33,424 nucleotides of DNA from a bacterium (GTDB taxonomy: Bacteria > T1Sed10-126). Of the stretch, positions 484 through 33,320 are shown piece after piece; within the stretch, counting starts at the first letter, position 1, and each line of letters begins with the position of its first letter. Below the pieces are notes generated by a model. The model was given only the letters and a program-made list of their open reading frames with translations, had not been told where the DNA came from and did no database searches. A program made the position numbers and the translations under genes. Location of the stretch: positions 64,380 through 97,803 of the forward strand of contig PWHN01000057.1 of NCBI GenBank assembly GCA_003554945.1, given 5' to 3'.

Positions 484-513
484 GGGCTTGACCCGCTCCC
501 GATTTATCTCCTC

Positions 514-550
514 TCCCCCCTTTGTCTTTCCCCCCATCAAGGGGGGAAAA
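514..550. repeat. G/C-tract palindromic repeat (family B), copy 1
   Basis: A run of C, the motif TTTGTCTTT, then CCCCCC-ATCAA-GGGGGG, which folds as a perfect 6-bp hairpin. The same arrangement recurs at 6567-6605 with TTTGTGTTT and a TTCAA loop. Recurrence makes this a dispersed repeat. It lies just downstream of polA and could also act as a terminator for that gene; this is only inferred. Confidence 0.7.
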
Positions 551-3259: not shown

Positions 3260-3344
3260 TTGTAACTACTCACCTTATCTTTCCCCCTCCCCCTCACCCT
3301 AACCCTCTCCCCCCAGGGGAGAGGGGATAGATGAGTAGTTACAA
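3260..3344. repeat. MITE-like palindromic repeat with 13-bp terminal arms (family A), copy 1
   Basis: Perfect 13-bp inverted arms TTGTAACTACTCA (3260-3272) and TGAGTAGTTACAA (3332-3344) frame a pyrimidine-rich core containing CACCCTAACCCTCTCC and a second palindrome CCCC-AGGGG. A close copy in the same orientation lies at 20569-20641, with a full left arm but only 7 bp of the right arm. Related cores occur at 6481, 15851, 23831 and 24270. The element fills the space between polA and pncC. No transposase is encoded. Confidence 0.85.
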
Positions 3345-6440: not shown

Positions 6441-6480
6441 CACAAAAACCTCCGTTAGAACGAATTAATATAAAGTCTTC

Positions 6481-6532
6481 TCCCAAAAGCCCTCTCCCCT
6501 GGAGGGAGAGGGTTGAGTGAGGGGAGAGAAGG
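6481..6532. repeat. Family A palindromic repeat, copy 2 (inverse orientation)
   Basis: Contains CCCTCTCCCCTGGAGGGAGA as a near-perfect palindrome followed by GGGTTGAGTGAGGGGAGAGA. Read on the minus strand it matches the CTCACCCTAACCCTCTCC core of the copy at 3260-3344. The 13-bp terminal arms are absent. Confidence 0.75.
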
Positions 6533-15631: not shown

Positions 15632-15850
15632 GAATAAATCCCTTCTCGCCAGATCAAACTTAAGAGTCAACCCAATCATTCGGAAGGTTCTTGAATAATC
15701 ACATCTAAAACGAATGATTTCATTGCTTTTTTACGCACCTATAAGTATAATGATATCTTAAATCGGCTGGAATATATAGATGAGTTTGACCAAACTCACA
15801 ATCTACCAACGATCTAGCCAAGACGGCCACCAGCCCGCTCTTGATTTTAC

Positions 15851-15889
15851 TCCTCTCCCCCCGAGGGAGAGGACACAGGTGAGGGGGGA
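15851..15889. repeat. Family A palindromic repeat, copy 3 (degenerate)
   Basis: TCCTCTCCCCCCGAGGGAGA and a following GGTGAGGGGGGAA. On the minus strand this reads as the CCCCCTCACC...CCTCTCCC core of family A. The outer 13-bp arms are absent. Confidence 0.65.
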
Positions 15890-20568: not shown

Positions 20569-20641
20569 TTGTAACTACTCATCTTATCTTTCCCCCTCAC
20601 CCTAACCCTCTCCCTCCAGGGAAGAGGGGATAGATGAGTAG
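20569..20641. repeat. Family A palindromic repeat, copy 4 (same subtype as 3260-3344)
   Basis: The left arm TTGTAACTACTCA (20569-20581) is identical to that of the 3260-3344 copy. The core CCCTAACCCTCTCC is shared, and the end GATAGATGAGTAG retains 7 bp of the right arm. The orientation is the same. It lies between tonB and the TPR gene. Shared arms over 17 kb apart point to copying of a discrete element. Confidence 0.85.
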
Positions 20642-20654
20642 ATAGGACATATTT

Positions 20655-22783: not shown

Positions 22784-23710
22784 CTAAAAATTCACCGTGC
22801 CTCCGGTGCGGATAATATTCCCATTTTCTTCCTGCATATAACCCAGCCGGAAGGAAAATCGCTCAAATTGAAAATCAAGGTTACCGGCCATTCCATCGTT
22901 ATCCTCGTATATGTTGTGATAACCAACAGCCAGACTGACGTGGGGAGAATATAAAAAACGTAGCCCCCCGGCCACTCCAATCTGTTGATCGTCATCAGTA
23001 TTACTGTTCTCATCTTCAAGATAAACGGCATCCGCCGTTATCCCCAACCTGGTCTGAAACAGATACCAAGCCACACCCGCCCTGTATTGAGGTGGAAGCT
23101 TGTTTTGTTTATCGTCAACCTTCAAGGAACCGTTTATGTTTTTTCCTACGGCACCGAGCCATAAGTCAGGCGTCATTCGAAAAATCGCCCCGACGTCCAT
23201 ACTTCCGGCAGTCTCTCTGTCGTAGTCAAAGTCAATTTTAGAAGTCATTACATTCCCGGTCACTCCAAGAGCCAGTCTATCTGTAAGAAGCTGGCTGTAA
23301 GTGAGACCTGCTTTAAATTCATTGCCCTGGGGCCGATAGAGGTCATCGGGCTCTTCCGGTTCAAGTTCGCCGTAATCAAGCCACGTGAATTGGGTTGAAA
23401 AAGCACCGCCACCACGCATCGGATGCGCCAGGGCAGCGCTTACAAGGTCCCATCCTTCACCCCAGCGCTGGTATTCAACGCTGAACTGGTTTGAAGCTAT
23501 ACGGCTAACGGCCGCCGGATTAGTAAAGCCTGCCTGTGCCGCTCGTGCATCAGCGGCGTAAGCCTGACCGACTCCCATGTTAAAAACCGGCAGATTCCAG
23601 CGCTCAAGATTGTCCCCCAGGGCCACCTCCTGCACCGTCTTACCAGCATACAGCGGACTCGCCCCCAGAAAGAACCCTATTATTAATATAGAAAAAATGA
23701 CTGCCTTCAT
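22784..23710 (-). CDS. PorV/PorQ-family outer-membrane beta-barrel protein
   Basis: Seen: signal peptide MKAVIFSILIIGFFLGASPL followed by YAG, then a 285-residue chain of alternating beta-strands with FNMGVGQAYAADARAAQAGF and TNPAAVSRI near the start. This is the PorV/UPF0164 opening, in which early Ala-rich and NPA motifs mark the family. It ends in GGTVNF, a terminal Phe as in barrel assembly signals. The frame stays open to 23917, but the extra 69 codons translate a palindromic repeat (SPPHPNPPPPGGRGLKGG), so ATG 23710 is chosen; its ribosome-binding site (AAAGGTGG) is 13 nt away and unremarkable. A related barrel gene lies upstream at 24338. Known: PorV-type proteins shuttle or anchor type IX secretion cargo; others have unknown roles. 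Confidence 0.82.
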   Translation of the reverse strand: MKAVIFSILIIGFFLGASPLYAGKTVQEVALGDNLERWNLPVFNMGVGQAYAADARAAQAGFTNPAAVSRIASNQFSVEYQRWGEGWDLVSAALAHPMRGGGAFSTQFTWLDYGELEPEEPDDLYRPQGNEFKAGLTYSQLLTDRLALGVTGNVMTSKIDFDYDRETAGSMDVGAIFRMTPDLWLGAVGKNINGSLKVDDKQNKLPPQYRAGVAWYLFQTRLGITADAVYLEDENSNTDDDQQIGVAGGLRFLYSPHVSLAVGYHNIYEDNDGMAGNLDFQFERFSFRLGYMQEENGNIIRTGGTVNF

Positions 23711-23830
23711 TACTTTATTAATACCACCTTTAAATGAAATCAGTCTCCTCAACAGTATCTTTCCATACGAAAAAAATAATCTTCCAGCTCTCAGTTCCCT
23801 CCCCTGAGAAGGAACAAAGTTTCCGCCTTT

Positions 23831-23875
23831 TAATCCCCTCCCCCCTGGAGGGGGAGGGTTAGGGTGGGGGGGAGA
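23831..23875 (-). repeat. Family A repeat, left inverted flank of DUF559 gene
   Basis: TAATCCCCTCCCCCCTGGAG followed by GGGGAGGGTTAGGGTGGGGG. On the minus strand it reads CACCCTAACCCTCCCCCTCC-AGGGGGGAGGGG, the mirror of the copy at 24270-24311 on the other side of the DUF559 gene. Distance from the gene end is 38 bases. Confidence 0.8.
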
Positions 23876-23913
23876 ATTAGAAAAAGAAACAGTAAAATGT
23901 CTCTCTAAATTTT

Positions 23914-24261
23914 TCATGATTCATCAAGCCCCTTTAAAATTTGCTCCAATACTTTATCTATCTCTTTTAAAACTTCGTTGTTCCAAAACCTTAATACAGT
24001 AAATCCTTCACTATTCAACCGATCAGTTCTCTCATCATCATACGTCTTATTTTTTTGGTGCTGACCACCGTCTAACTCCACAATAAACTTTTTTTCAAAA
24101 CATTCCACAATATATTTATCTATTGGCTGCTGACGTCGAAATTTATAGTCATCCAAATTTTTCTTCCTCAGGTGATACCAAAGTTTTTCTTCAGCATCTG
24201 TCATATTTTTCCGCAAGTGCTTCGCTTTTTCAACATTTTTCTTTTGATATTTACGTTTCAT
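23914..24261 (-). CDS. DUF559 nuclease-like protein (Vsr-related PD-(D/E)XK fold)
   Basis: Seen: a 115-residue basic protein with MTDAEEKLWYHLR (Glu at about 25), FRRQQPIDKYIVEC (Asp at about 48), the core VELDGGQH (Glu 62, Asp 64, His 68), and YDDERTDRLNSEGFTVLRFW. These are the motifs of DUF559, a family related to very-short-patch-repair endonucleases, with the likely metal-binding residues intact. The function of free-standing DUF559 proteins is not established. The gene lies between two PorV-like barrel genes that otherwise look adjacent, and is flanked on both sides by inverted copies of the family A palindrome, which looks like insertion of a discrete unit. Its stop overlaps an in-frame ATG of the downstream barrel frame. 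Confidence 0.88.
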   Translation of the reverse strand: MKRKYQKKNVEKAKHLRKNMTDAEEKLWYHLRKKNLDDYKFRRQQPIDKYIVECFEKKFIVELDGGQHQKNKTYDDERTDRLNSEGFTVLRFWNNEVLKEIDKVLEQILKGLDES

Positions 24262-24269
24262 AATTCAAC

Positions 24270-24311
24270 TTCCCCCTCCCCTTAATCCCCTCCCTCCAGG
24301 GGAGGGGAGAT
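24270..24311 (+). repeat. Family A repeat, right inverted flank of DUF559 gene
   Basis: TTCCCCCTCCCCTTAATCCC followed by CTCCCTCCAGGGGAGGGGAG. The orientation is opposite to the copy at 23831-23875. It lies only 8 bases upstream of the DUF559 start codon, so the gene's translation signals lie directly against or inside the repeat. Confidence 0.8.
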
Positions 24312-24337: not shown

Positions 24338-25600
24338 TCATTGGTTATCCCTCGCATTCTGCAGGTATTCCCGCGCCTTTTCATAATTACCAATCTGGTA
24401 ATAAGCCTGTCCAAGCTGCCTGTATACACCGCTCTGTCCGGGAGCATCCCGCAGACTCTGCTCCCACAACTCGATTGCCTGCTCGTAGTTACCTGCCTCT
24501 AAGTGCTGCTCGGCGCGCGAGTTAAGCTCAGCGTTTTCCTCATCAATTTCTTCACTGCGTTCTGGAATTAGCTCCTTAAGATCTCGCTCCAGCCCCTCGC
24601 GGAAGCGACGCCGTTCTTCAGGGTCTACAATCTCCGGTCGTTCCCTGATCAACCTTTCCTCGGGCCGGTGACCAAACTCGAAAGACATCGAGAAGACGTG
24701 ACTGGCTTCCAGGTTTGTGCGATCAGAGTAACTGTAATCAAAAGCAAACTGACCATCATTAACTCCAAGACCGGTATAAAATTGCCCGTCGTCGCTATAA
24801 TCACGCGAAGTAGAATAACCGGCCCGCAGGTCGAGAAAATTAACGAGATTATACTCCGCACCCAGGGCAAAATAAGTGATATTTTCCGGCTGATAATATA
24901 TTAGATCGTTGGCCAACGTTAAACGCCTCTCAAAGGGCTGAAAGTCATAAGCCCAACCGGCGCGAACAGTACGCGGCAGTGGATCTCCTTCTTCAATAAA
25001 TTTGATATCCGGCCCCAGGTTCTGCACCACCGCTCCAAGACGCAGCGGTGTCCGCGGAGAACTGTAATGCAGGCCAAGATCGAGCGCATAACTGCTGGCA
25101 TCATAGTCAGCCAGTTGTTCACGAATGTATTTGGCGCCTGCTCCCAGAGACAGACCATAACGACTTCCGTAAGCGTAGTTTAACGAAAACGAACCGCTGT
25201 AATTTGTAAAATCAGAACCGTCCTCCCACTCTGAGCGGTAGTAATCAGTGGTGTGTAACAATCTCCCTCCCACGCCAACAGTATGACTGGCCCCAAACGG
25301 ATAAGCCAGGCTCAAATATTCGTTGTCAATATCTAAATCGGGAAATAGCTGCTCGTGGCTGACGCTGAATACGCCCCGTTCCAACCGGCTCATGCCGGCC
25401 GGATTCCAGTACATTCCGAAACCGTCATCAGAAACAGCCGTATAGGCGCCGGCCATAGCCGTAGCTCGCGGGCCCGCCTTGACACGCAGGAAATCCGCGC
25501 CGACTATACCGACGTCACCAGCCCACACCGGAGAAATCCCCAAACATAAAAACAGTATTACTGTCAATATTACCAAGGGCTCTATTTTTCGACTACTCAT
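24338..25600 (-). CDS. PorV/PorQ-family barrel protein with C-terminal TPR domain
   Basis: Seen: signal peptide (LVILTVILFLCLGISPVWAG), then GADFLRVKAGPRATAMAGAY and DDGFGMYWNPAGMSRLERG, the classic PorV/UPF0164 opening. Beta-strand pairs follow up to about residue 315 (VFSMSFEFGH). The C-terminus (about 345-420) has two TPR units: SRAEQHLEAGNYEQAIELWE and GQAYYQIGNYEKAREYLQ. Known: PorV is the outer-membrane shuttle of the type IX secretion system; PorV-like proteins with TPR tails occur in several candidate phyla. The neighbouring upstream gene encodes a protein with a T9SS/FlgD-like C-terminal domain, which fits a secretion role but does not prove it. The ribosome-binding site is weak. Confidence 0.85.
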   Translation of the reverse strand: MSSRKIEPLVILTVILFLCLGISPVWAGDVGIVGADFLRVKAGPRATAMAGAYTAVSDDGFGMYWNPAGMSRLERGVFSVSHEQLFPDLDIDNEYLSLAYPFGASHTVGVGGRLLHTTDYYRSEWEDGSDFTNYSGSFSLNYAYGSRYGLSLGAGAKYIREQLADYDASSYALDLGLHYSSPRTPLRLGAVVQNLGPDIKFIEEGDPLPRTVRAGWAYDFQPFERRLTLANDLIYYQPENITYFALGAEYNLVNFLDLRAGYSTSRDYSDDGQFYTGLGVNDGQFAFDYSYSDRTNLEASHVFSMSFEFGHRPEERLIRERPEIVDPEERRRFREGLERDLKELIPERSEEIDEENAELNSRAEQHLEAGNYEQAIELWEQSLRDAPGQSGVYRQLGQAYYQIGNYEKAREYLQNARDNQ

Positions 25601-25686
25601 AACACTTCACCCCACAATGGGTAAAAGTTTCTCTCGCCAACATACCACAAACCATCTTCTGGCACGCAGATCCCGCCGCTAACTTT

Positions 25687-25746
25687 CGCCCCCTCGCCCC
25701 ATCTCCCCATCGACACTCCACGTTCCCCGCCCTTGAACTTGACCTT
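25687..25746. repeat. Intergenic octamer repeat plus CTTGAACTTGACC motif, copy 1
   Basis: Units CGCCCCCT, CGCCCCAT, CTCCCCAT and CGACACTC run in an exact 8-base register. After a short spacer follows CCCTTGAACTTGACCTT (25730-25746). The same two blocks recur at 27350-27425 and 31518-31600. Just before, at about 25660, lies GGCACGCAGATCCCGC, also found at 27243. No gene is supported between 25601 and 25789. Confidence 0.7.
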
Positions 25747-25789
25747 CGCTCTTGTTGTTGACGCCAAGCGCGAAGCGCCCCGCGATCGT

Positions 25790-27169
25790 TTACTTAACAA
25801 GGGTAACCTTGCCCCTTTCGACGCCATATTGTGATTTAATCACGTAGACATAGGTACCACTGGCCACGTAACTGCCGCGGTCGTTCTTGCCCCACCAGCG
25901 GGCTTTGTTACCGCTTTCGCGAAAGTCTATGCCCCGTCCAACAGTCAACCGCCGCACCATCTGTCCCTGCACGTTGTAGAGGAAGATCTCCATACCGTCA
26001 TCTGCCGGCAGATCCTGGAATACGAACGGGTCGCCTTCAAGCGGTTTAAACGGCGACGGCCAGGTTCTGACCTCATCCAGCGTATCGATGTGGTCGGGAT
26101 CGGGATCGGGCGTCCAGACAGTGGTATCTTCCCCGGCCAGGGCAGCATCCATAACGTCCGTATTAACCGAGGCTCTAATGTAAGTAGTTTCGCCACGCAC
26201 CTCAAGGAAGGGCGTCTTGCCTTCCAACGCCGGGTGTTCATCAAAACGTGAATGTCCCTCCGTAAAGCCAAACTCAAGCTCATAGAGTGGAATATCTGCA
26301 TCTTCATCCTCTTCCAGAACTATGTCAAGTTCTGAACCGGTTAATTTATCACCATATTTATCCTCGGACCAAATGCTTACCGGCAGCGTATCGCCAATAG
26401 ACGGCTGCTCTGCCCTGATCATACCAAGAGGTTCTCCCGCTTCGTCCGTCCGCCCCACGTATTTTTCTTCCCTGAAATAGAGCGGCTCGGGTTCTTCGGC
26501 AGTTACTGGAATCACTACTGTATCTGCTCCGCGGCCTCGTTTAGAATCCACCCAGGCACTGTCGGGATGGCTGGTTTCTGCCACAATAGTTATCGTATCG
26601 GCTTCAAAATTACTATCCAGATCTATCTCTAGACCAATATATTTGGTATCCATAGAATCAACTATAGACTCTATTCTGCCGGTAGAATCAATAGTATCCC
26701 CATCTACATCTGTTAGTCTGATACTTTCTATGCCCGTTTCTCCAGCAACTGAAGTATCCGCGGAAAGACTGAACTCATCCGGCGCATTCCCCAGATTCCA
26801 GGCCTCAATGTCAATTATGTCAGATGCGCCCGGCAACATTCTATGCTCGTTATGTTCGGGTATCAGGTGTGGGAACGCAAGCGTATCCACACTTGCCGAA
26901 ACTTCTGCCGGAGTCATATACGTAGTATCTCCGCCGTCTCGGTTACGGGCGATCATAACCATTTCACCGGGACCGGCCGGCAGGCGATTATCAGGTGTTT
27001 TAGCATTCTCAATTACTGTTCCTACAGGGGTCGTATCCGTCTCCAAATCATACTCAAATCTTCCTTCTACCGGACTAACACACAGCAGCAGAACGAGCAG
27101 ACCAATCCCACAGAGCAGATAACGGGACCAATTGCGGAAAAGCCCGCTCATCCTGCTGGTTTCATTCAT
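25790..27169 (-). CDS. Secreted protein with FlgD-like/type IX secretion C-terminal domain
   Basis: Seen: signal segment (YLLCGIGLLVLLLCVSPVEG), an N-terminal part with PAGPGEMVMIARNRDGGDTT similar to the start of the three DUF11 proteins to the right, an Asp/Glu/Thr-rich middle, and from about residue 370 a C-terminal domain. That domain has TWPSPFKPLEGDPFVFQDLP, IFLYNVQGQMVRRL, WWGKNDRGSYVASGTYVYVI and final GKVTLVK. This is the FlgD-Ig-like/T9SS type A sorting pattern (NPFNP, YNxxGQxVR, WDGxNDxGxxVxSGxYxY). Known: such domains send cargo through the type IX system or anchor it at the surface. A PorV-like gene lies just downstream. No catalytic domain is seen. Start ATG 27169 has GAGGTG 8 nt upstream. 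Confidence 0.83.
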   Translation of the reverse strand: MNETSRMSGLFRNWSRYLLCGIGLLVLLLCVSPVEGRFEYDLETDTTPVGTVIENAKTPDNRLPAGPGEMVMIARNRDGGDTTYMTPAEVSASVDTLAFPHLIPEHNEHRMLPGASDIIDIEAWNLGNAPDEFSLSADTSVAGETGIESIRLTDVDGDTIDSTGRIESIVDSMDTKYIGLEIDLDSNFEADTITIVAETSHPDSAWVDSKRGRGADTVVIPVTAEEPEPLYFREEKYVGRTDEAGEPLGMIRAEQPSIGDTLPVSIWSEDKYGDKLTGSELDIVLEEDEDADIPLYELEFGFTEGHSRFDEHPALEGKTPFLEVRGETTYIRASVNTDVMDAALAGEDTTVWTPDPDPDHIDTLDEVRTWPSPFKPLEGDPFVFQDLPADDGMEIFLYNVQGQMVRRLTVGRGIDFRESGNKARWWGKNDRGSYVASGTYVYVIKSQYGVERGKVTLVK

Positions 27170-27425
27170 GCGTTACACCTCACTTTTGAACCACAGATTT
27201 CACAGATAAAATTCGGATTTAATTCAAAATAAACATCTTTTTGGCACGCAGATCCCGCAGATAACTTCGGATTTATGGTCAAGCCCTTGCTTTGGGCGGG
27301 CTGTGAACCGCTAAACCTAAATCCTGTCAATCCTGTCAATTGCCTCACGCCCTTGAACTTGACCTTGATTCCCACGCGCTTTCGCCCCCTCGCCCTATCG
27401 CCCCACCGCCCCATCGACACTCCAC

Positions 27426-27450
27426 GCGGTACCAAACACACAGGAGGTGC
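27426..27450. repeat. Inverted copy of the DUF11 ribosome-binding region, downstream of paralog 1
   Basis: On the plus strand this reads GCGGTACCAAACACACAGGA then GGTGC. It matches, in reverse orientation, the leader of paralog 1 (29180-29204) at 22 of 25 positions if one G-U pair is allowed. In the transcript of paralog 1 this places an anti-Shine-Dalgarno sequence downstream of the stop codon. A near-identical copy lies at 31654-31678 downstream of paralog 3. Confidence 0.75.
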
Positions 27451-27690
27451 ACTTAGACTCGAATTCGCCGCAGAGGTCCCTGGATGCGATACAGGCCACC
27501 CCTGCAAATTACACCGGTCCGCAGACCATCGCTTGCCCTGTCGCAAATCACGCACTAATTTGCTTCGGAGCCGGCCGCGGCTCCTATTGAACTGTTCCGG
27601 GCAACCACGCCTGCTCAGCACTGATTCCCGGGTCGAGTCTATACTGCTTCGGTCATTCAAAAGATCCATCCTTTCTTCTGCAAATTCAAA
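27451..27690. repeat. Conserved block downstream of DUF11 paralog 1
   Basis: Shares ordered short matches with 31679-31890: CATCGCTTG, CAAATCAC, CAACTG/GAACTG, TTCCCGGGTCG and AGATCCATCCTTTC. Spacing differs little. On the minus strand both open with GAAAGGATGGATCT and can be read as peptides sharing MDLL, a STRE/TTRE motif, DL-KRW and PPVCLV, but the AAAGG abuts the ATG, so translation is doubtful. Best described as duplicated 3'-flanking DNA of two paralogs, possibly structured RNA. Confidence 0.5.
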
Positions 27691-27899
27691 TCACCTGCAA
27701 GTTGAGCAAGCCCCTCTCAACAGATCATCAACCTCAATCTAAAGGCTCCGGCCCGCTCAGACATTCCCGATCACCGACCGGTTATCCGGAACTGTCCTGC
27801 CTGCACAAGCTGCACGCCTTACAACCAACCCACCGGCAGCCTGCCGCAAGTATACAGCCGAACTACCGCAGTCCTGAGACCACCCAATAAAAAACATCA

Positions 27900-29174
27900 T
27901 CAGTTGATCTGAACAGTGAATTCAACTAACCGGTTACCAGGCACATTTTCATTAAAATCCGGGTCTTCATCACCGTAAGGCCCTATCTCATGAAAATGCC
28001 AGCGGAGCATCTCTACGTCCGTATCGCCATCTGTAGGTTCTTCACCGGTGAAATCATCGTAGTCGTAACCATCCGCATACTCGAATTCATCCGCTTCACC
28101 TTGCTCCCCCGAATAATACGTCGTATGCTCCGGAATAGCATCGATGATCTCGATATCGGTCGCCGTGTCACCACCATGGTTGGAAACAGCTATCTCATAA
28201 CTAATCGTGTCACCAGGGCGCCGGCGCCAGTCTTCAACATCCAGTGCTTGCTTATCGATAGCCATATCCGGACCTAGGACCTGAGTTACAAACCAGCCGG
28301 TCTGGGTGTCAAAACGGTCCTCTTCAACCGGCATTCCACGCTCCCAGCCGTCACCGTAGGGATATTCCCCCTCGTGAGTAGGGGCGTTATTGGTCACCTG
28401 AAACCTGGACTTTATCCAGTCTTGATCACTTACATTTCCGTCGGAGGTAACGACAAGATAAATTGTCTTTACCTCGCCGTAGGACCAGCCAGATATTTCA
28501 CCGTCGACAAGATTTCCATCTTGCCCGGCTCCGACCGCGTCCTGGGAACCATCAAAATCTGCCGCAGTATTGGCACCGTCTTCGTAGTAAAGCTCGACTG
28601 TAAACTCTCCTTCCTCTTCATCCGGGTCCAATTCTTCGACATAATTCTCGTGCAGCGCGTCGTAGTCGATGTTTACGTAGTTGTTACTCATGTTCATCAC
28701 CTGCACGGCTCGCACCACCGAGTCGCTGGCTGTAATCGACACCGTGTCGGCCGGATCGTAATCCTCTAGATCAGAACCGTCACTCATCTCAACCTCACGG
28801 AAAATTTGCTCGAAATCCTGTCCTTCGACCGTGGAGGAGTCAGGCCGGGCAATATAGGACATGTCCCAGCCGGTATCGACGTTATCCTCAATTTGATCCG
28901 CTATAGCATAACTGGTGTCGGCTCCCTGCAAGTTTCTCCAACGCAGGGCCAGTTCACCAGGGTCGCCGGGCAGTTCCTGCGGGCCCGGATCAATAGCGTT
29001 AATTATCTCCTCCATCGCCTTGGTTATCGTGTCACCGTCATCAACCGCACTCTCCATCGAGATCTTGTCCGTGTCGGACTCTACTGCCTGTGAGGGCGAT
29101 GGGCTCACAGCCAGTCCAAAGGCAGCAACAAAAGTCACTGCAAGAAAAAGAATTAAAATCTGTTTAAATCGCAT
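27900..29174 (-). CDS. Secreted DUF11-domain protein, paralog 1
   Basis: Seen: signal peptide (ILILFLAVTFVAAFGLAVSP, then SQAVE), an N-terminal module with IINAIDPGPQELPGDPGELA and WRNLQGADTSY, a middle domain with VVRAVQVMNMSNNYVNIDYD, and from about residue 305 a DUF11 domain (RRPGDTISYEIAVSNHGGDT, then EIIDAIPEHTTYY). It ends in VEFTVQIN. DUF11 is an Ig-like repeat of bacterial surface and S-layer-type proteins. The 424-residue protein is about 15% Asp/Glu or more by eye. No membrane anchor or sorting motif is seen at the C-terminus. Start ATG 29174 has AGGAGG about 8 nt upstream in a conserved leader. Two paralogs lie upstream. Function unknown; surface structural role inferred. Confidence 0.85.
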   Translation of the reverse strand: MRFKQILILFLAVTFVAAFGLAVSPSPSQAVESDTDKISMESAVDDGDTITKAMEEIINAIDPGPQELPGDPGELALRWRNLQGADTSYAIADQIEDNVDTGWDMSYIARPDSSTVEGQDFEQIFREVEMSDGSDLEDYDPADTVSITASDSVVRAVQVMNMSNNYVNIDYDALHENYVEELDPDEEEGEFTVELYYEDGANTAADFDGSQDAVGAGQDGNLVDGEISGWSYGEVKTIYLVVTSDGNVSDQDWIKSRFQVTNNAPTHEGEYPYGDGWERGMPVEEDRFDTQTGWFVTQVLGPDMAIDKQALDVEDWRRRPGDTISYEIAVSNHGGDTATDIEIIDAIPEHTTYYSGEQGEADEFEYADGYDYDDFTGEEPTDGDTDVEMLRWHFHEIGPYGDEDPDFNENVPGNRLVEFTVQIN

Positions 29175-29179
29175 CGTTA

Positions 29180-29283
29180 GAACCTCCTGTGTGTGTGATA
29201 CTGCAAGATTAATTGTGCGTAATGTAACGTCGTACTGTGCTGCTAATGCTGTCCTTTGCTACAATACTTGTCGTATCACCTCC
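29180..29283 (-). promoter_or_regulatory. Conserved 5' leader of DUF11 paralog 1
   Basis: On the minus strand the leader starts with the perfect anti-16S match GGAGGTGAT (in 29274-29283), which has no start codon at normal spacing. It runs through a block conserved with paralog 3 (GACAGCATT, CACAGTACGACGTTACATTA, CGCACAA) and ends at GTATCACACACACAGGAGGT, whose AGGAGG serves the gene. GTGATAC near the 5' end can pair with GTATCAC near the 3' end. The counterpart is 33166-33270; paralog 2 lacks it. Confidence 0.7.
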
Positions 29284-29382
29284 CGTTGTTGGCGGGGAGC
29301 AGGGCGCAGGGGGCGGGGGGCTAAACCCGTAAACCCTTAAAATCCTCTGCTCGCAGACCGTAAAATAATCGATCATTTCCAT
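29209..29382 (-). CDS. Possible 57-residue ORF behind the four-helix-bundle gene
   Basis: An ATG at 29382 lies 19 bases after the four-helix-bundle gene and is preceded by AAAGGAGAGGG at good spacing. The frame begins MEMIDYFTVCEQRI, passes through the GC-rich repeat (YGFSPPPPAPCSPP) and ends within the leader of DUF11 paralog 1 (TVRRYITHN). The signal for translation is real, but the sequence is built from repeat and leader, so it may be a spurious frame. Its repeat part is read in the same frame as the ORFs at 29772 and 31334. Confidence 0.25.
   Translation of the reverse strand: MEMIDYFTVCEQRILRVYGFSPPPPAPCSPPTTGGDTTSIVAKDSISSTVRRYITHN
29289..29336. repeat. GC-rich repeat I, copy 1
   Basis: TTGGCGGGGAGCAGGGCGCA, continuing GGGGGCGGGGGGCTAAACCC. 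Of 48 bases, 47 equal the copy at 31351-31398. A diverged copy lies at 29794. Copies 1 and 2 flank the four-helix-bundle gene as direct repeats. Confidence 0.85.
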
Positions 29383-29401
29383 TTTATTTCCCTCTCCTTT
29401 T

Positions 29402-29770
29402 TTAAGACTTTCTCAAACTTTTTTGAAAATTCGTTATTTGTCGGGATAATTGCTCAAGTTCTGTCACAATATCCTTACAAGGGTCAGGATCAATTAACCC
29501 ACGTCTACGAAAAACTGTAAGCATATTTACGTTCTCGAAAATAGAACGCCGTGCAATTCCCAAAAATCGGCTAAACTCCTTATCACTATCACAACCGGCT
29601 CCTTCCGCGATATTATTAGATACAGACAAAGCAGCTCCGTTAAGCTGCTCAGCAAATTTATACTTTTTCTTTTGCGCGATTTCCTCCGCTATGTCATAAA
29701 GCTTGTCTCCCACGTTTATTGCCATTTTCCAAATTTCAAACTTCATAAAGCGAAACGGCTCGTCTTGCAT
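29402..29770 (-). CDS. Four-helix-bundle protein (S23/TIGR02436 family)
   Basis: Seen: a 122-residue protein with FEIWKMAINVGDKLYDIAEE, EQLNGAALSVSNNIAEGAG (NNIAEG at about 52-57), FSRFLGIARRSIFENVNML and LEQLSRQITNFQKSL. This is the order of the 23S rRNA intervening-sequence/four-helix-bundle family (PF05635). Known: originally found inside 23S rRNA intervening sequences; Avd of diversity-generating retroelements has the same fold; the role of free-standing copies is unknown. Here no reverse transcriptase or rRNA is nearby. The gene sits between DUF11 paralogs 1 and 2, flanked by direct copies of repeat I. AGGAGTG is 7 nt before the ATG. Likely a repeat-associated insertion into a duplicated surface-protein array. 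Confidence 0.9.
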   Translation of the reverse strand: MQDEPFRFMKFEIWKMAINVGDKLYDIAEEIAQKKKYKFAEQLNGAALSVSNNIAEGAGCDSDKEFSRFLGIARRSIFENVNMLTVFRRRGLIDPDPCKDIVTELEQLSRQITNFQKSLRKS

Positions 29771-29771
29771 C

Positions 29772-29888
29772 TCAAATCACTCCTAAAAATCTTTTGGCGG
29801 GGAGCAGGGGACCGAGGGCTGGGGACCCGTTAACTCCTGAAAACCCTTGCTTAACCTGCTCTGCCTTGAGATATCCATCATCACTCAT
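29772..29888 (-). CDS. Possible 38-residue ORF upstream of the four-helix-bundle gene
   Basis: ATG 29888 has AGAGG about 6 nt upstream. The peptide MSDDGYLKAEQVKQGFSGVN and 18 more residues ends with a TGA one base before the four-helix-bundle ATG. A second ORF of exactly 38 codons at 31334-31450 shares QV-Q-FSGVNG at identical positions and also ends at the start of the next gene. Both cross repeat I. Could be a leader peptide coupling translation, or a chance frame within a repeat. Confidence 0.3.
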   Translation of the reverse strand: MSDDGYLKAEQVKQGFSGVNGSPALGPLLPAKRFLGVI

Positions 29889-30060
29889 CAGTAACCTCTC
29901 CAGCTCAATTTCCTTTCTTGGTTTTGAACTGCTTTTTTTCTCGTTTTTGCTCTTAATTTTGCACTTGCCTTTGTCTTTTGCTCCACGCTCCCCGCCCCAC
30001 GCGCCCTTCCCTCGCACTTGAACTTGACGTTAGCCCCCTGCCCCCTGCCCCACGCCCCCC
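29794..30060. repeat. Composite repeat (diverged repeat I plus TTTTGAACTGCTTTT and CTTGAACTTGAC blocks)
   Basis: Begins TTGGCGGGGAGCAGGGG, then GTTAACTCCTGAAAACCC and AACCTGCT. It continues with GGTTTTGAACTGCTTTTTTT, TTTTGCTCTTAATTTTGC, GCTCCACGC-type text and CACTTGAACTTGACG, and finally a CCCCCTGC run. The same blocks in the same order occupy 31351-31600. It fills the space between paralog 2 and the four-helix-bundle gene. Confidence 0.7.
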
Positions 30061-30068
30061 GCTGCTCT

Positions 30069-31334
30069 TTAGTTAATCCAAACTTCAAAACGCACCACCC
30101 TTTCACCGGTATCAGGAGCTTCCCAGTCAATCTCCCAATCTTCCGGATCAATTCCCTCGTTATATTCAATCTCATCGTACGTCCAGCGTATCTTTTTCAC
30201 GTTTTCCGGTTCGTCCACATCCCAATCCTCACCGTCATACTCACTTTCAAATTCAACCGTCAGATTATCCTGCAGAATGGTATCCCCTTCGGCACTTTCC
30301 GGCACATAAGTAGTATGCTCTGGAATCGCATCCACAACCTCAATTTCCGTCGCCTTGTCACTACCGTAGTTAACTATCGCTATCTCATACCCGACCGTAT
30401 CTCCGGGTCGCATCCTCCACGCGCCCGTATCACGCGCCCGCTTATCAATCATCATACGCGGACCGGTTATCTCGGTCACAAAGTAACCCCACTGGGTGTC
30501 AAACCGGTCCTCAGCAGTCGGCAGGCCGCGCTCCCAGCTATCACCACTGGTGCTGGCATCGTCGTCATGCACCGGCGCGTTGTTGGTTATGAAGAACTCC
30601 GACTCCACGTAGTCGCCGTCACTGACCTGGTCATCAGCACTGATCACGAGGTAGATAGTCTTGACCTCGCCCATCGTCCAGCCGTCGATATCACCGTCAG
30701 CTCCATCAACACGAGTTATTCCCCCACCAACGTCACCGCTATCAAAATCAGTCGCTTCCCGGAAACCGTCCTCGTAAAACAGCTCCAGGCTGAAGGAACC
30801 TTCTTCGATCTGATCTATCTCTTCGGCTATCGTGTCGTGGTAGCCGCTGAAGTCGATATCGACGTAATTGTTGGAAAGATTAGCCACCTGGACGGCCCGA
30901 ACCACCGAGTCACCGGCGCTCATACTGACCGTATCGGCGCCGATATTACGTTCTTCTTCCGTGCCAAACCGGGCCCGGCTGAATACTGGTTCGTCGGCAC
31001 CATCGACGTCAATAGTGGAAGAATCAGCCGCCGCAATATCCGACATGTCCCAGCCGGTGTCGACACTGTCGGTCACTGTCTGCTCCGGCGCTTTCCAGCC
31101 GGTGTCACCGCCGGCAAGGTTGGTCCAGTTGACGACAAGCTCACCGTGGGTATCGGGATAACGCTGCTGCGTGGCGGCAGTGTCAAAGGCGTTGACTATC
31201 TCCGTCAGCGCCCGCGTCACACCAACATCAACCGTGGTCTCCTCGGCCACAGCCTGCCCCGCCGGCAGAGCAATCCCCACAGCTGCCAGAGACAGACCAA
31301 CAAGAACCGAAACCAACCACTGATTACGTTTCAT
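30069..31334 (-). CDS. Secreted DUF11-domain protein, paralog 2
   Basis: Seen: signal peptide (LVSVLVGLSLAAVGIALPAG, QAVAEE), N-terminal module with VDVGVTRALTEIVNAFDTAA and WTNLAGGDTGW, a middle part with VVRAVQVANLSNNYVDIDFS and EVKTIYLVISADDQVSDGDY, and a C-terminal DUF11 domain (MRPGDTVGYEIAIVNYGSDK, EVVDAIPEHTTYVP) ending in VRFEVWIN. 421 residues. It is closer to paralog 3 than to paralog 1 in the N-terminal module. Unlike the others it lacks the conserved leader: its start codon follows repeat I directly, with AAGGGG about 9 nt before the ATG, and the stop of a 38-codon ORF overlaps the ATG. Expression control is therefore probably different. Confidence 0.85.
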   Translation of the reverse strand: MKRNQWLVSVLVGLSLAAVGIALPAGQAVAEETTVDVGVTRALTEIVNAFDTAATQQRYPDTHGELVVNWTNLAGGDTGWKAPEQTVTDSVDTGWDMSDIAAADSSTIDVDGADEPVFSRARFGTEEERNIGADTVSMSAGDSVVRAVQVANLSNNYVDIDFSGYHDTIAEEIDQIEEGSFSLELFYEDGFREATDFDSGDVGGGITRVDGADGDIDGWTMGEVKTIYLVISADDQVSDGDYVESEFFITNNAPVHDDDASTSGDSWERGLPTAEDRFDTQWGYFVTEITGPRMMIDKRARDTGAWRMRPGDTVGYEIAIVNYGSDKATEIEVVDAIPEHTTYVPESAEGDTILQDNLTVEFESEYDGEDWDVDEPENVKKIRWTYDEIEYNEGIDPEDWEIDWEAPDTGERVVRFEVWIN

Positions 31335-31450
31335 TAGAATGAACCCCTTATTGGCGGGGAGCAGGGCGCAGGGGGCGGGGGGCTAAACCCGTTAACCCCT
31401 GAAAACCTCTGACCAACCTGCTTCGCCTCAAAGTGTTCTGCATCGTCCAT
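31334..31450 (-). CDS. Possible 38-residue ORF upstream of DUF11 paralog 2
   Basis: Begins MDDAEHFEAKQVGQRFSGVN and ends in IRGSF. Its TAA overlaps the ATG of paralog 2 by one base (TAATG). It matches the ORF at 29772-29888 in length and in QV-Q-FSGVNG. The ribosome-binding site is weak (AGGA about 10 nt upstream). Most of it is repeat I. Confidence 0.25.
   Translation of the reverse strand: MDDAEHFEAKQVGQRFSGVNGFSPPPPAPCSPPIRGSF
31351..31398. repeat. GC-rich repeat I, copy 3
   Basis: 47 of 48 bases equal 29289-29336, 2 kb away, in the same orientation. The following AACCCCTGAAAACC and AACCTGCT blocks match the copy at 29794-29870. The copy ends 17 bases before the start of paralog 2. Confidence 0.85.
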
Positions 31451-31517
31451 CTTTAATCAGTCCTATTCACTTGCGTTCCGCGGTTTTGAACTGCTTTTTG
31501 CTCTTGATTTTGCTCCA

Positions 31518-31600
31518 CGCGCCCCGCTCCATGCCCCATCACCCCACCGCCCCATCGACACTCCACGTCCCCCTCCGCCCTTGAACTTGACCTTGATTTC
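31518..31600. repeat. Octamer repeat plus CTTGAACTTGACC motif, copy 3
   Basis: CACCCCACCGCCCCATCGAC and CACTCCACG, then CCCTTGAACTTGACCTTG (from 31578). It has the same block order as 27383-27425 and 25687-25746, although at 27350 the CTTGAACTTG block precedes the octamers. Confidence 0.65.
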
Positions 31601-31610
31601 CACGAACTTT

Positions 31611-31650
31611 CGCCTGTTCGCATGCTCGCCTGTTCTCCTGCTCGACGCTT
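31611..31650. repeat. Five-unit 8-bp tandem array
   Basis: CGCCTGTT, CGCATGCT, CGCCTGTT, CTCCTGCT, CGACGCTT in exact register. The reverse complement is GAACAGGC/GAGCATGC-type, matching the array at 33281-33320 in opposite orientation on the far side of DUF11 paralog 3. Confidence 0.75.
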
Positions 31651-31653
31651 CAC

Positions 31654-31678
31654 GCAGTACCAAACACACAGGAGGTTC
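31654..31678. repeat. Inverted copy of the DUF11 ribosome-binding region, downstream of paralog 3
   Basis: GCAGTACCAAACACACAGGA then GGTTC on the plus strand. It pairs with the leader of paralog 3 (33166-33190): 23 of 25 positions, one of them G-U, including all of AGGAGG. It lies about 310 bases after the paralog 3 stop codon. Confidence 0.8.
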
Positions 31679-31890
31679 AAATCCTTGTTCGGGTACAATC
31701 TTCCCCAACACATACAACCAGGACGGCAGCCATCGCTTGTCCCGCCACAAATCACTCACAAATTCGTGTCGAGACACCGCACGCCCTTTATTCAACTGCA
31801 CCGGTGCACCGCCGAAAAACGATGCTTCCCGGGTCGTAAAGTTCAACTTCGCTGTAACCAATAGATCCATCCTTTCAAGGGTGTTCTCAT
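31679..31890. repeat. Conserved block downstream of DUF11 paralog 3
   Basis: Counterpart of 27451-27690, sharing CATCGCTTG, CAAATCAC, TTCCCGGGTCG and AGATCCATCCTTTC in order. Together with the flanking inverted sequence it shows that paralogs 1 and 3 were duplicated with their 3' flank. Confidence 0.5.
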
Positions 31891-31984
31891 TGCACTCCTC
31901 AAAAAATCGAAACACTGCACCCCTTCACTACTTACTCAGCCGGGAAAAATCTTTCCCCGGCCTCCATCAGACCGACTCCGCTCG

Positions 31985-33160
31985 TTAGTCAATGGTGACG
32001 GAGAAGCTAAGCTCCAGTGATCCGTATTCACCATCTTCCTGATCCGCCGGGATCGTGTCGTAATACCACCTGATCATCTCAGTAGCGTCATCATCCGCGT
32101 CATCAAAATTGTCAGCGTTGAGATTGTCAGAAAAATCTATATCAACAGATTCTCCATAATCAGGATCATCACCGGCGGCTGATCCGGCGATATAAGTGGT
32201 ATGCTGCGGTATAGCGTCAATAATCGTCACGCCCGACGCCGTATCGCTACCGATGTTATCCACTGTCAGGGTGTAATCTATAGTGTCTCCAGGTCGTGTG
32301 CGACCGCTTGGAGTATCGTGGGACTTGTCGATTTGGATAACCGGTCCCTCGACAACTGTCCAGAATAAACCGGTTTGTGTGTCATATTGATCCTCTCCGA
32401 CAGGCACGCCTCGCTCCCAGGCATCACCGCTTCCGGAAGGATCTCTAACCGGTGCGTTATTAGTCACCCAGAAATCAGATTTGATCTCATCGCCGTCAGC
32501 AGCATCAACGCCAGACTTTACAACTAGAAACAGGGTCTTAACTTCACCCATAGTCCAACCCGTCACGTCACCGTCGGAGCCTCCTACTCCTTCGAGATCT
32601 TCATCTGGCAAAGTGTAAAAGTCTTCCGCCGTGTAAGACCCATCAGCGTAATGCAACTCCAATGTGAAGGTGTCGTTGCCATCGGTAAATTCATTTTGAT
32701 AACCCTCACCAATTAAATGATACGCAGAGAAATCAATCTCGACGTAGTTATTGCCGAGATTGGCAATCTCCACGGCTCGCACCCTGGTGTCGTTAGCTGC
32801 TATCGACTCAGTTTCACCAAATACATCCGTTACTGCGAGGCCTTCAAAATGAGTTGTATCGTGGATATCCGACATGTCCCAGCCGGTGTCGACGGTGTCC
32901 GTAACCCGATCCTCGGGTGCAGACCAACCAGTGTCACCACCGGCAAGGTTGGTCCAGCGTGAGACAACTTCACCGCGGGCGTTTGGAAAACGTTCGTCAA
33001 CCGCCGCGGTGTCAAAAGCGTTGATAATCTGCTCCATCGCTCGGGTTACTCCAACATCAACTGTGTCATCGGCCTGCGCGGGCGATGGGTTCCACGCGAA
33101 ACCAATTGCAATAGCGATCGCTACTGCAACCAATAAAGTGAATAATCTTCTGACTTTCAT
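31985..33160 (-). CDS. Secreted DUF11-domain protein, paralog 3
   Basis: Seen: signal peptide (LFTLLVAVAIAIAIGFAWNP, SPAQADD), N-terminal module VDVGVTRAMEQIINAFDTAA with WTNLAGGDTGW, a middle domain (RVRAVEIANLGNNYVEIDFS, GEVKTLFLVVKSGVDAADGD), and a DUF11 domain from about residue 280 (TRPGDTIDYTLTVDNIGSDT, TIIDAIPQHTTYI) ending in LELSFSVTID. 391 residues, the shortest of the three. The ATG at 33160 has AGGAGG about 8 nt upstream in the leader shared with paralog 1. A surface-layer or appendage role is plausible from DUF11 and the signal peptide, but nothing specific can be claimed. Confidence 0.86.
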   Translation of the reverse strand: MKVRRLFTLLVAVAIAIAIGFAWNPSPAQADDTVDVGVTRAMEQIINAFDTAAVDERFPNARGEVVSRWTNLAGGDTGWSAPEDRVTDTVDTGWDMSDIHDTTHFEGLAVTDVFGETESIAANDTRVRAVEIANLGNNYVEIDFSAYHLIGEGYQNEFTDGNDTFTLELHYADGSYTAEDFYTLPDEDLEGVGGSDGDVTGWTMGEVKTLFLVVKSGVDAADGDEIKSDFWVTNNAPVRDPSGSGDAWERGVPVGEDQYDTQTGLFWTVVEGPVIQIDKSHDTPSGRTRPGDTIDYTLTVDNIGSDTASGVTIIDAIPQHTTYIAGSAAGDDPDYGESVDIDFSDNLNADNFDDADDDATEMIRWYYDTIPADQEDGEYGSLELSFSVTID

Positions 33161-33165
33161 CGTTA

Positions 33166-33270
33166 GAACCTCCTGTGAGTGTGATACTGCGAATTTAGGT
33201 TGTGCGTAATGTAACGTCGCGCTGTGCTACCAATGCTGTCACTTACTGCAAAAATTGTCTTATCACCTCC
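33166..33270 (-). promoter_or_regulatory. Conserved 5' leader of DUF11 paralog 3
   Basis: Aligns without gaps over most of its length to 29180-29283. It has GGAGGTGATA at its 5' end (33261-33270), a shared middle (CGACGTTACATTACGCACAA) and GTATCACACTCACAGGAGGT at its 3' end. The last 25 bases are complementary to 31654-31678 downstream of the same gene. GTGATA and TATCAC within the leader can also pair. Confidence 0.7.
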
Positions 33271-33280
33271 TGTACTGATC

Positions 33281-33320
33281 GAGCTTGCGAACTTGCGAGC
33301 ATGCGAGCTTGCGAAAATGC
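33281..33320. repeat. Five-unit 8-bp tandem array between 15-bp direct repeats
   Basis: GAGCTTGC, GAACTTGC, GAGCATGC, GAGCTTGC, GAAAATGC in exact register. The array is bracketed by TCCTGTACTGATCGA at 33268-33282 and again at 33334-33348. Such octamers resemble the array at 31611-31650, inverted. Confidence 0.8.

Follow-up and report, generated by a model that had tools for sequence, protein, structure and literature searches.

Why does a small nuclease-like gene lie between two inverted palindromic repeats that recur without it elsewhere in the same genome? We addressed this question at a locus within a 33,424-nucleotide stretch of bacterial DNA (hereafter, the window), which belongs to contig C102 of a 2.2-Mb genome assembled in 121 contigs (G000). 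A preliminary description of this DNA proposed that the gene, a member of the DUF559 family, is a candidate mobiliser or user of the repeats. The features that bear on the question are listed below, with TM standing for triplex motif.

23833–24311, minus strand: the whole TM-DUF559-TM cassette, 479 bp between outer edges
23914–24261, minus strand: DUF559 gene, for a predicted Vsr/EDxHD-like nuclease with a 2-aa deletion at the conserved YIVDF (Pfam, alignments, structural model close to 3HRL and I-Bth0305I)
24269–24311, minus strand: putative triplex-motif repeat on the upstream side of the gene, with an outward hairpin and the third arm toward the gene (repeat search, strict detector)
23833–23874, plus strand: putative triplex-motif repeat on the downstream side of the gene, with an outward hairpin and the third arm toward the gene (repeat search, strict detector)
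3287–3325, minus strand: gene-free repeat copy (repeat search, strict detector)
6477–6528, plus strand: gene-free repeat copy (repeat search, strict detector)
15835–15888, plus strand: gene-free repeat copy (repeat search, strict detector)
20591–20644, minus strand: gene-free repeat copy with an imperfect stem, missed by the strict detector (repeat search, D3 and I2)
513–549, minus strand: weaker hairpin with a third arm, of another sequence type, which may belong to the class (strict detector)

The gene encodes 115 amino acids on the minus strand (open-frame list and Pfam), and its product matches Pfam PF04480 with an E-value of 1.4e-41 and 141.2 bits, compared with a curated cut-off of 20.6; DUF559 and MTES_1575 are its sole Pfam matches. 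The flanking repeats are mutually inverted and 78% complementary over 41 nt. The downstream repeat is separated from the stop codon by 39 bases, and the upstream repeat from the start codon by 7. These values confirm the bracketing given in the preliminary description and agree with its spacings to within a base, and its count of at least four solitary copies in the window was also right. Using a strict TM detector (a 7-nt perfect stem and a third arm with at most two mismatches of seven), we obtained calls at 23835–23874 (plus) and 24269–24308 (minus) for the flanking pair, and nine partly overlapping matches in the window in total, compared with 0.05 in a first-order Markov control (mean of 20). 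The neighbouring genes had both been called PorV-like. The gene at 24338–25600 retains a weak Pfam match to PorV, under the cut-off (E = 6e-5), and also matches Toluene_X and TPR, but the gene at 22784–23917 had no Pfam match. In the part of the window from 25676 to 33316, separate G/C-rich direct and inverted repeats recur between genes (D4–D14, I5, I10, I11).

Read from the hairpin, each repeat consists of a pyrimidine arm, a short loop, a complementary purine arm, a spacer of approximately three bases and a final purine arm, the third, in mirror image of the second. Judged from their letters, the repeats of the window are built like the G/C-rich intrastrand triplex motif of Holder et al. 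(2015), with the three blocks that define it: a stem arm, its complementary arm and a mirror third arm, separated by short loops (class II). This motif, also termed TMECO or PIT, is intergenic and dispersed in many bacteria, with 23 copies in Escherichia coli K-12. According to the main text of that study, in which DUF559 does not appear, mobility functions were never found in the gene context of TMs, and a triplex was shown for TMECO in vitro, whereas in vivo footprinting gave no support for a stable triplex (PMC4666352).

In the 148 TMs of the 74 cassettes described below, the third arm places G over G at 922 of 965 positions and A or T over A at 311 of 330, counts that are partly built into a detector that favours matches. 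The informative part is confined to the mismatches at A, where T is preferred (134 T, 11 C and 8 G). Purine-motif triplexes pair in this way, with G over G and A or T over A. We did not adopt a reading of the third arm as a mere alternative pairing partner, since among 121 asymmetric stems the mirror reading scored 0.93 and the direct-repeat reading 0.80, a difference that is weak alone because the detector favours the mirror. Several variants were observed in addition. A second small hairpin of varying sequence (for example, GCGAAGCGC and CCCGAAGGG) between the second and third arms is, by eye, mainly an alphaproteobacterial variant (loci L206, L225, L177, L218 and L233, and viral-labelled contigs such as L262). 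At two Legionella loci (L195 and L198), DUF559 is adjoined by TM-like repeats with very long loops; passages of a Legionella study describe transposase/DUF559 segments as mutation and recombination hotspots (PMC12308824). In Neisseria gonorrhoeae, tandem TM pairs with a spacing of approximately 281 bp lie downstream of the DUF559 gene (L146, 3490–4190).

We examined DUF559 loci in two samples. The first was drawn from genomes picked as relatives of the window's genome, nearly all of them from other families. A search of 386 genomes found 74 positive genomes at E = 1e-15, and extra places came from a search of 59 genomes at E = 0.001; 114 loci were examined, which comprised 92 with an open frame shorter than 260 aa and 22 with longer frames and left aside approximately 15 places of the larger search and eight weaker or partial places of the smaller one. 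The strict detector found a TM within 250 bp at 74 of the 92 loci, and on both sides at 37, with a density of 3.94 per kb near the gene compared with 0.20 per kb further out (42 matches in 210.5 kb). For the longer frames, a TM was present at 10 of 22 loci, and the other 12 include clearly larger proteins. The second sample, the best 80 of 578 confirmed DUF559 loci from named organisms, covered Nitrospirae, Chloroflexi, Planctomycetota, Dadabacteria, Spirochaetes, Elusimicrobia, Gastranaerophilales and many Proteobacteria. Here, a strict TM lay within 250 bp at 67 of these best 80 loci and on both sides at 43, with 4.83 TMs per kb near the gene compared with 0.17 per kb further out in the same loci. 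On the Markov control and these near-versus-far densities, we rejected a chance origin of the pairing.

When the stem could be imperfect and the loops and spacer longer (relaxed detector), TMs were found within 250 bp at 79 of the best 80 of 578 loci, compared with 37 of 1644 control windows (2.3%), and at 86 of the 92 relatives' loci, compared with 28 of 666 (4.2%). The relaxed detector missed L226 in the former sample and L043, L044, L051, L127, L138 and L142 in the latter; L043, L044 and L051 are weak DUF559 matches, and L127 has a strict match. By the strict detector, no TM was present at 30 control loci of the structurally related Vsr or at 30 control loci of Y1 transposases (RAYT/IS200), two families searched in the same manner as DUF559. 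DUF559 is accordingly associated with TMs across bacteria. DUF559 genes elsewhere without the repeats had been put forward as what would speak against a link, and the opposite was found. Because TMs lie near nearly all DUF559 loci, in few control windows and at none of the loci of the two control families, the description of DUF559 as a candidate mobiliser or user of the repeats is well supported. A search of the open-access literature, a scope that excludes most subscription papers and preprints, yielded no prior report of a DUF559–TM link. On contigs classed as viral, a strict TM was present within 250 bp at 28 of 56 DUF559 loci, for most of which the gene end is approximate. Many of these loci (L252–L278) lie on G+C-rich contigs of approximately 4–9 kb, several near contig ends and several with look-alike neighbours, and carriage of DUF559 by a small prophage is possible there.

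Whichever way the gene reads, the TMs of a pair are mutually inverted, their hairpins pointing outward and their third arms toward the gene. Counting only loci with a TM on the side in question, this orientation was found upstream (plus) at 51 of 52 and downstream (minus) at 53 of 58 of the best 80 of 578 loci, and on the left (plus) at 54 of 57 and on the right (minus) at 50 of 54 of the relatives' loci. Because the strict detector demands a third arm, we also selected hairpins alone (at least 8 bp) and located the mirror arm afterwards. Such hairpins were present in 235 of 344 DUF559 flanks compared with 204 of 3028 far windows. Of these 235 flanks, 173 had the better mirror arm on the inner side and 53 on the outer side, and 9 were tied (P = 5e-16).

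Cassettes with inward-facing TMs on both sides (n = 74) measure 341–592 bp, with a median of 428 bp and an interquartile range of 413–452 bp. Their stems differ widely from one cassette to another (e.g. CCCTCTCCC, CCTTCCCCC, CCCCTCTT and CCCCCTTT), and TM similarity is 0.83 within cassettes compared with 0.70 between them. Protein similarity and TM similarity are correlated (Mantel r = 0.50 for the 74 cassettes and 0.42 for 43 proteins below 60% identity; P = 5e-4), and removing the difference in GC content hardly altered this correlation. We further compared 61 pairs of non-syntenic cassettes whose genes share DNA homology; these pairs are mutually non-independent. Homology either fades before the TM or ends at its outer edge. 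The upstream edge was reached in 27 of the 61 pairs, 21 of which end within 5 bp of it, and the downstream edge in 28, of which 22 do so. For example, a deltaproteobacterial cassette (L161) and one from Dadabacteria (L166) share 80% identity from TM to TM in unrelated flanks. In two pairs (L080/L100 and L065/L073), homology continues some 20–130 bp past the TMs. The association, the geometry, the matching of TMs within cassettes, the co-divergence of TM and protein and the ending of homology at TM edges together establish TM-DUF559-TM as a discrete one-gene cassette of approximately 430 bp.

A genome-wide count of repeats and DUF559 genes, which the preliminary description had called for, gave 46 canonical TM hairpins and a single DUF559 gene in the 2.2 Mb of the window's genome. 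Thirty repeat loci were fetched from this genome; 28 have a recognised central TM, which lies outside open frames of at least 120 aa in 27. The two TM types of the window's cassette also occur without a DUF559 gene, on contig C54 (L357) and on C97, C101 and C41. Similarly, the hairpin of two DUF559 cassettes in genome G267 occurs 21 times in that genome, once in G130 of the same family and twice in G347, where it also accompanies that genome's own DUF559 gene (L121); it was absent from 21 other genomes. Cognate gene-free TM copies thus occur in the same genome as the cassette. Among the 386 genomes, canonical TM hairpins were present in 41 of 74 DUF559-positive and 65 of 312 DUF559-negative genomes (odds ratio 4.7, P = 1e-8), a comparison based on one repeat type and the threshold of E = 1e-15, with no phylogenetic correction. 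The fixed pattern misses other TM types, and 33 of the 74 positive genomes have no canonical hairpin. The 65 TM-bearing genomes without DUF559 count against a simple picture, the extreme being G332, with 398 canonical hairpins and no DUF559 match at E = 1e-15.

We sought clean empty sites and partly found them, the best being the site of locus L119; L402 is a site with a lone TM. By eye, the content of the L119 site varies among relatives of the same family: G267 has TM-DUF559-TM, G391 and G390 each have one TM of that type, G389 and G130 have TMs of other types, and G394 has two degenerate TMs, whereas no TM was seen in G395, G392 and G393. In G267, the two units flanking this gene read in the same direction, each with third arms on both sides. 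The single-TM state could be a homing-like target or a scar of recombination between the two flanking units. Two other candidates for a clean empty site were rejected: G345, which is located in a repeated region, and L124, which is rearranged in relatives. At the latter site, G392 and G393, of another genus, have a TM of other sequence in a short gap. The E. coli sapF–fabI interval gives no clean junction, because ycjD, the DUF559 gene there, alternates with an efflux operon, an alternation also described in passages of a published study (PMC12817139). In the sapF–fabI interval (loci L145, L151 and L157), degenerate TMs follow ycjD where it is present; L157, the one strain with the efflux operon in its place that was read through to fabI, has by eye no TM upstream of fabI. 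From its distribution, we infer that the cassette moves. No target-site duplication was detectable next to the 74 cassettes (end matches of at least 5 in 1 of 74, permuted mean 1.4), which makes classical DDE transposition unlikely; a homing- or REP-like route is one possibility among others.

TMs also appear to travel inside other elements. By eye, seven of the 30 fetched repeat loci of the window's genome (L003, L011, L013, L014, L016, L017 and L021) are near-identical gene-free elements in which outer inverted repeats, CCTCTCCGAAAAG ... CTTTTCGGAGAGG, enclose an inverted pair of two different TMs, with possible short TTA-rich target duplications. In G116, the DUF559 copies L080 and L100 have 664 bp in common, past their TMs, with possible outer inverted ends (similar to GGTAGTGTCAAAA), as if these cassettes were nested in a MITE.

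The AlphaFold model of the window protein (mean pLDDT 81.8) most closely resembles, in a Foldseek search, PDB entry 3HRL (NGO0050 of N. gonorrhoeae; E = 2.6e-7), followed by 3R3P, the catalytic domain of the homing endonuclease I-Bth0305I (E = 3e-4, approximately 28% identity); nothing else scored below E = 0.001. A profile search also gave 3R3P as the next match, a weak one (E = 0.014). By these predicted-structure comparisons, the nearest characterised structure to the DUF559 fold is that of I-Bth0305I. The 3HRL protein is itself encoded at a DUF559 locus, L219 of N. gonorrhoeae (93 of 93 residues identical), where a repeat adjoins the gene. In 44 DUF559 sequences, the invariant residues include E24, E62, D64 and H68, with D53 near-invariant (numbering of alignment A3); we take these five residues to be catalytic. 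The window protein keeps E24, E62, D64 and H68, but in place of YIVDF, whose D53 is at least 90% conserved, it has YIVE-CFEK, with D53 and two residues lost. As a consequence, the window copy may be inactive, and the deletion could be real decay or an assembly error. The lost residue bears on activity and leaves the homology to DUF559 unaffected; the genome carries many TMs despite its D53-less DUF559.

Taken together, these results lead us to regard as probable that TM-DUF559-TM is a discrete, probably selfish one-gene cassette of approximately 430 bp, whose DUF559 protein recognises and cuts TMs and thereby spreads both. That DUF559 cuts and spreads TMs is our best inference, drawn from analogies with REP/RAYT (layout) and EDxHD homing endonucleases (chemistry). 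The protein would recognise its own TM as a duplex, an extruded hairpin or a triplex and would nick or cut it, and repair of the break would copy the cassette, or a lone TM, to new places. This spread would resemble that by homing endonucleases or REP-associated RAYTs but use different chemistry, and TMs without the gene would be non-autonomous copies, as REPs are to RAYTs. Several observations weigh against this explanation, among them the TM-bearing genomes with no DUF559 match, the long-lived ycjD with degenerate TMs, the window copy without D53 and the TM pairs inside longer elements. More tentatively, and at somewhat less than even odds in our judgement, DUF559 might represent a new minimal class of mobile element, a lone Vsr-fold nuclease of approximately 120 aa that recognises hairpin or triplex ends, moves its own cassette and has seeded the intrastrand-triplex repeats.

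We weighed three other explanations. DUF559 could be a host nuclease for repair or structure processing, Vsr-like or a resolver of hairpins or triplexes, with TMs as autoregulatory binding sites or tolerated neighbours and the repeats spread otherwise. The Vsr-like fold agrees with this explanation, as do the mismatch-repair role proposed, in passages of the relevant paper, for the Caulobacter DUF559 protein VsrA (PMC12907096) and the long life of ycjD in E. coli, which is present in 3365 of 5426 genomes at a median of one place, and whose downstream TMs are all degenerate, with no strict match. However, DUF559 is patchy (74 of 386 genomes at E = 1e-15), with up to five divergent copies per genome, and occupies unrelated neighbourhoods in which homology ends at TM edges; furthermore, TMs lie on both sides rather than at the promoter alone, and their divergence follows that of the protein. 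We therefore consider a host function unlikely.

It is less probable still that the cassette is a passenger, that is, that TM pairs, with or without DUF559, are carried along in a MITE-like manner by an unrelated DDE transposase whose substrates are outer terminal inverted repeats. The seven gene-free elements of the window's genome and the extended border of the two G116 copies speak for this explanation, but most comparable pairs lose homology at the TM edges, no target duplications lie beside the TMs of the 74 cassettes, and it does not account for a passenger that nearly always belongs to a single protein family. Finally, TM-rich genomes might place TMs as terminators beside many short, horizontally acquired genes, so that the association is a coincidence. 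TMs are indeed intergenic and common in some genomes, both in our hairpin counts and according to Holder et al., yet an earlier study cited there found no promoter or terminator activity of TMs (PMC4666352). Far stretches of the same loci are 20- to 28-fold poorer in TMs, the Vsr and Y1 controls gave 0 of 60, and the TMs are paired in inverted orientation on both sides; we regard coincidence as very improbable.

How does a cassette cut and spread by its own nuclease compare with known systems? The preliminary description drew a parallel with RAYT/REP and IS/MITE pairs. It holds for the layout and for the gene-free copies, and fails in that there is no Y1 domain, no DDE transposase and no target duplication. 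As in REP/RAYT systems (REPINs), a small nuclease gene lies between inverted palindromic repeats, gene-free copies exist and no target duplication was found at the cassettes; however, DUF559 has no Y1/HUH domain, its fold and repeat are different, and none of the 30 Y1 loci had a TM. A RAYT as the partner of the repeats in the window's genome was rejected on the basis of two of its five Y1 loci (L354 and L355), neither of which has a TM. An autonomous copy and gene-free copies with common ends also recall IS/MITE pairs, from which the 74 cassettes differ in having neither a DDE transposase nor a target duplication. The predicted Vsr-type catalytic fold is that of I-Bth0305I, an EDxHD homing endonuclease, but DUF559 is the catalytic domain alone (115 aa in the window), lies outside any intron or intein and has repeats at its borders, whereas I-Bth0305I is described with extra DNA-binding domains and a long target.

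YcjD of E. coli K-12 and NGO0050 of N. gonorrhoeae are DUF559 members like the window protein. By 2005, YcjD had been placed in the PD-(D/E)XK superfamily and connected with Vsr, according to passages of that work (PMC1189080); the published passages on the two proteins give neither a function nor a link to TMs. Compared with the motif of Holder et al., the repeats described here have the same hairpin and mirror third arm, with a wider sequence repertoire and, in one variant, an additional hairpin ahead of the third arm; the main text of that study names no associated gene, whereas here DUF559 is the cognate gene. TMs, a class of widespread orphan repeats linked to genome instability in E. coli, now have a candidate enzyme, and DUF559, a widespread orphan nuclease family, gains a candidate substrate. 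If this reading is right, the two would form a repeat–nuclease pair that parallels REP/RAYT with a different catalytic fold.
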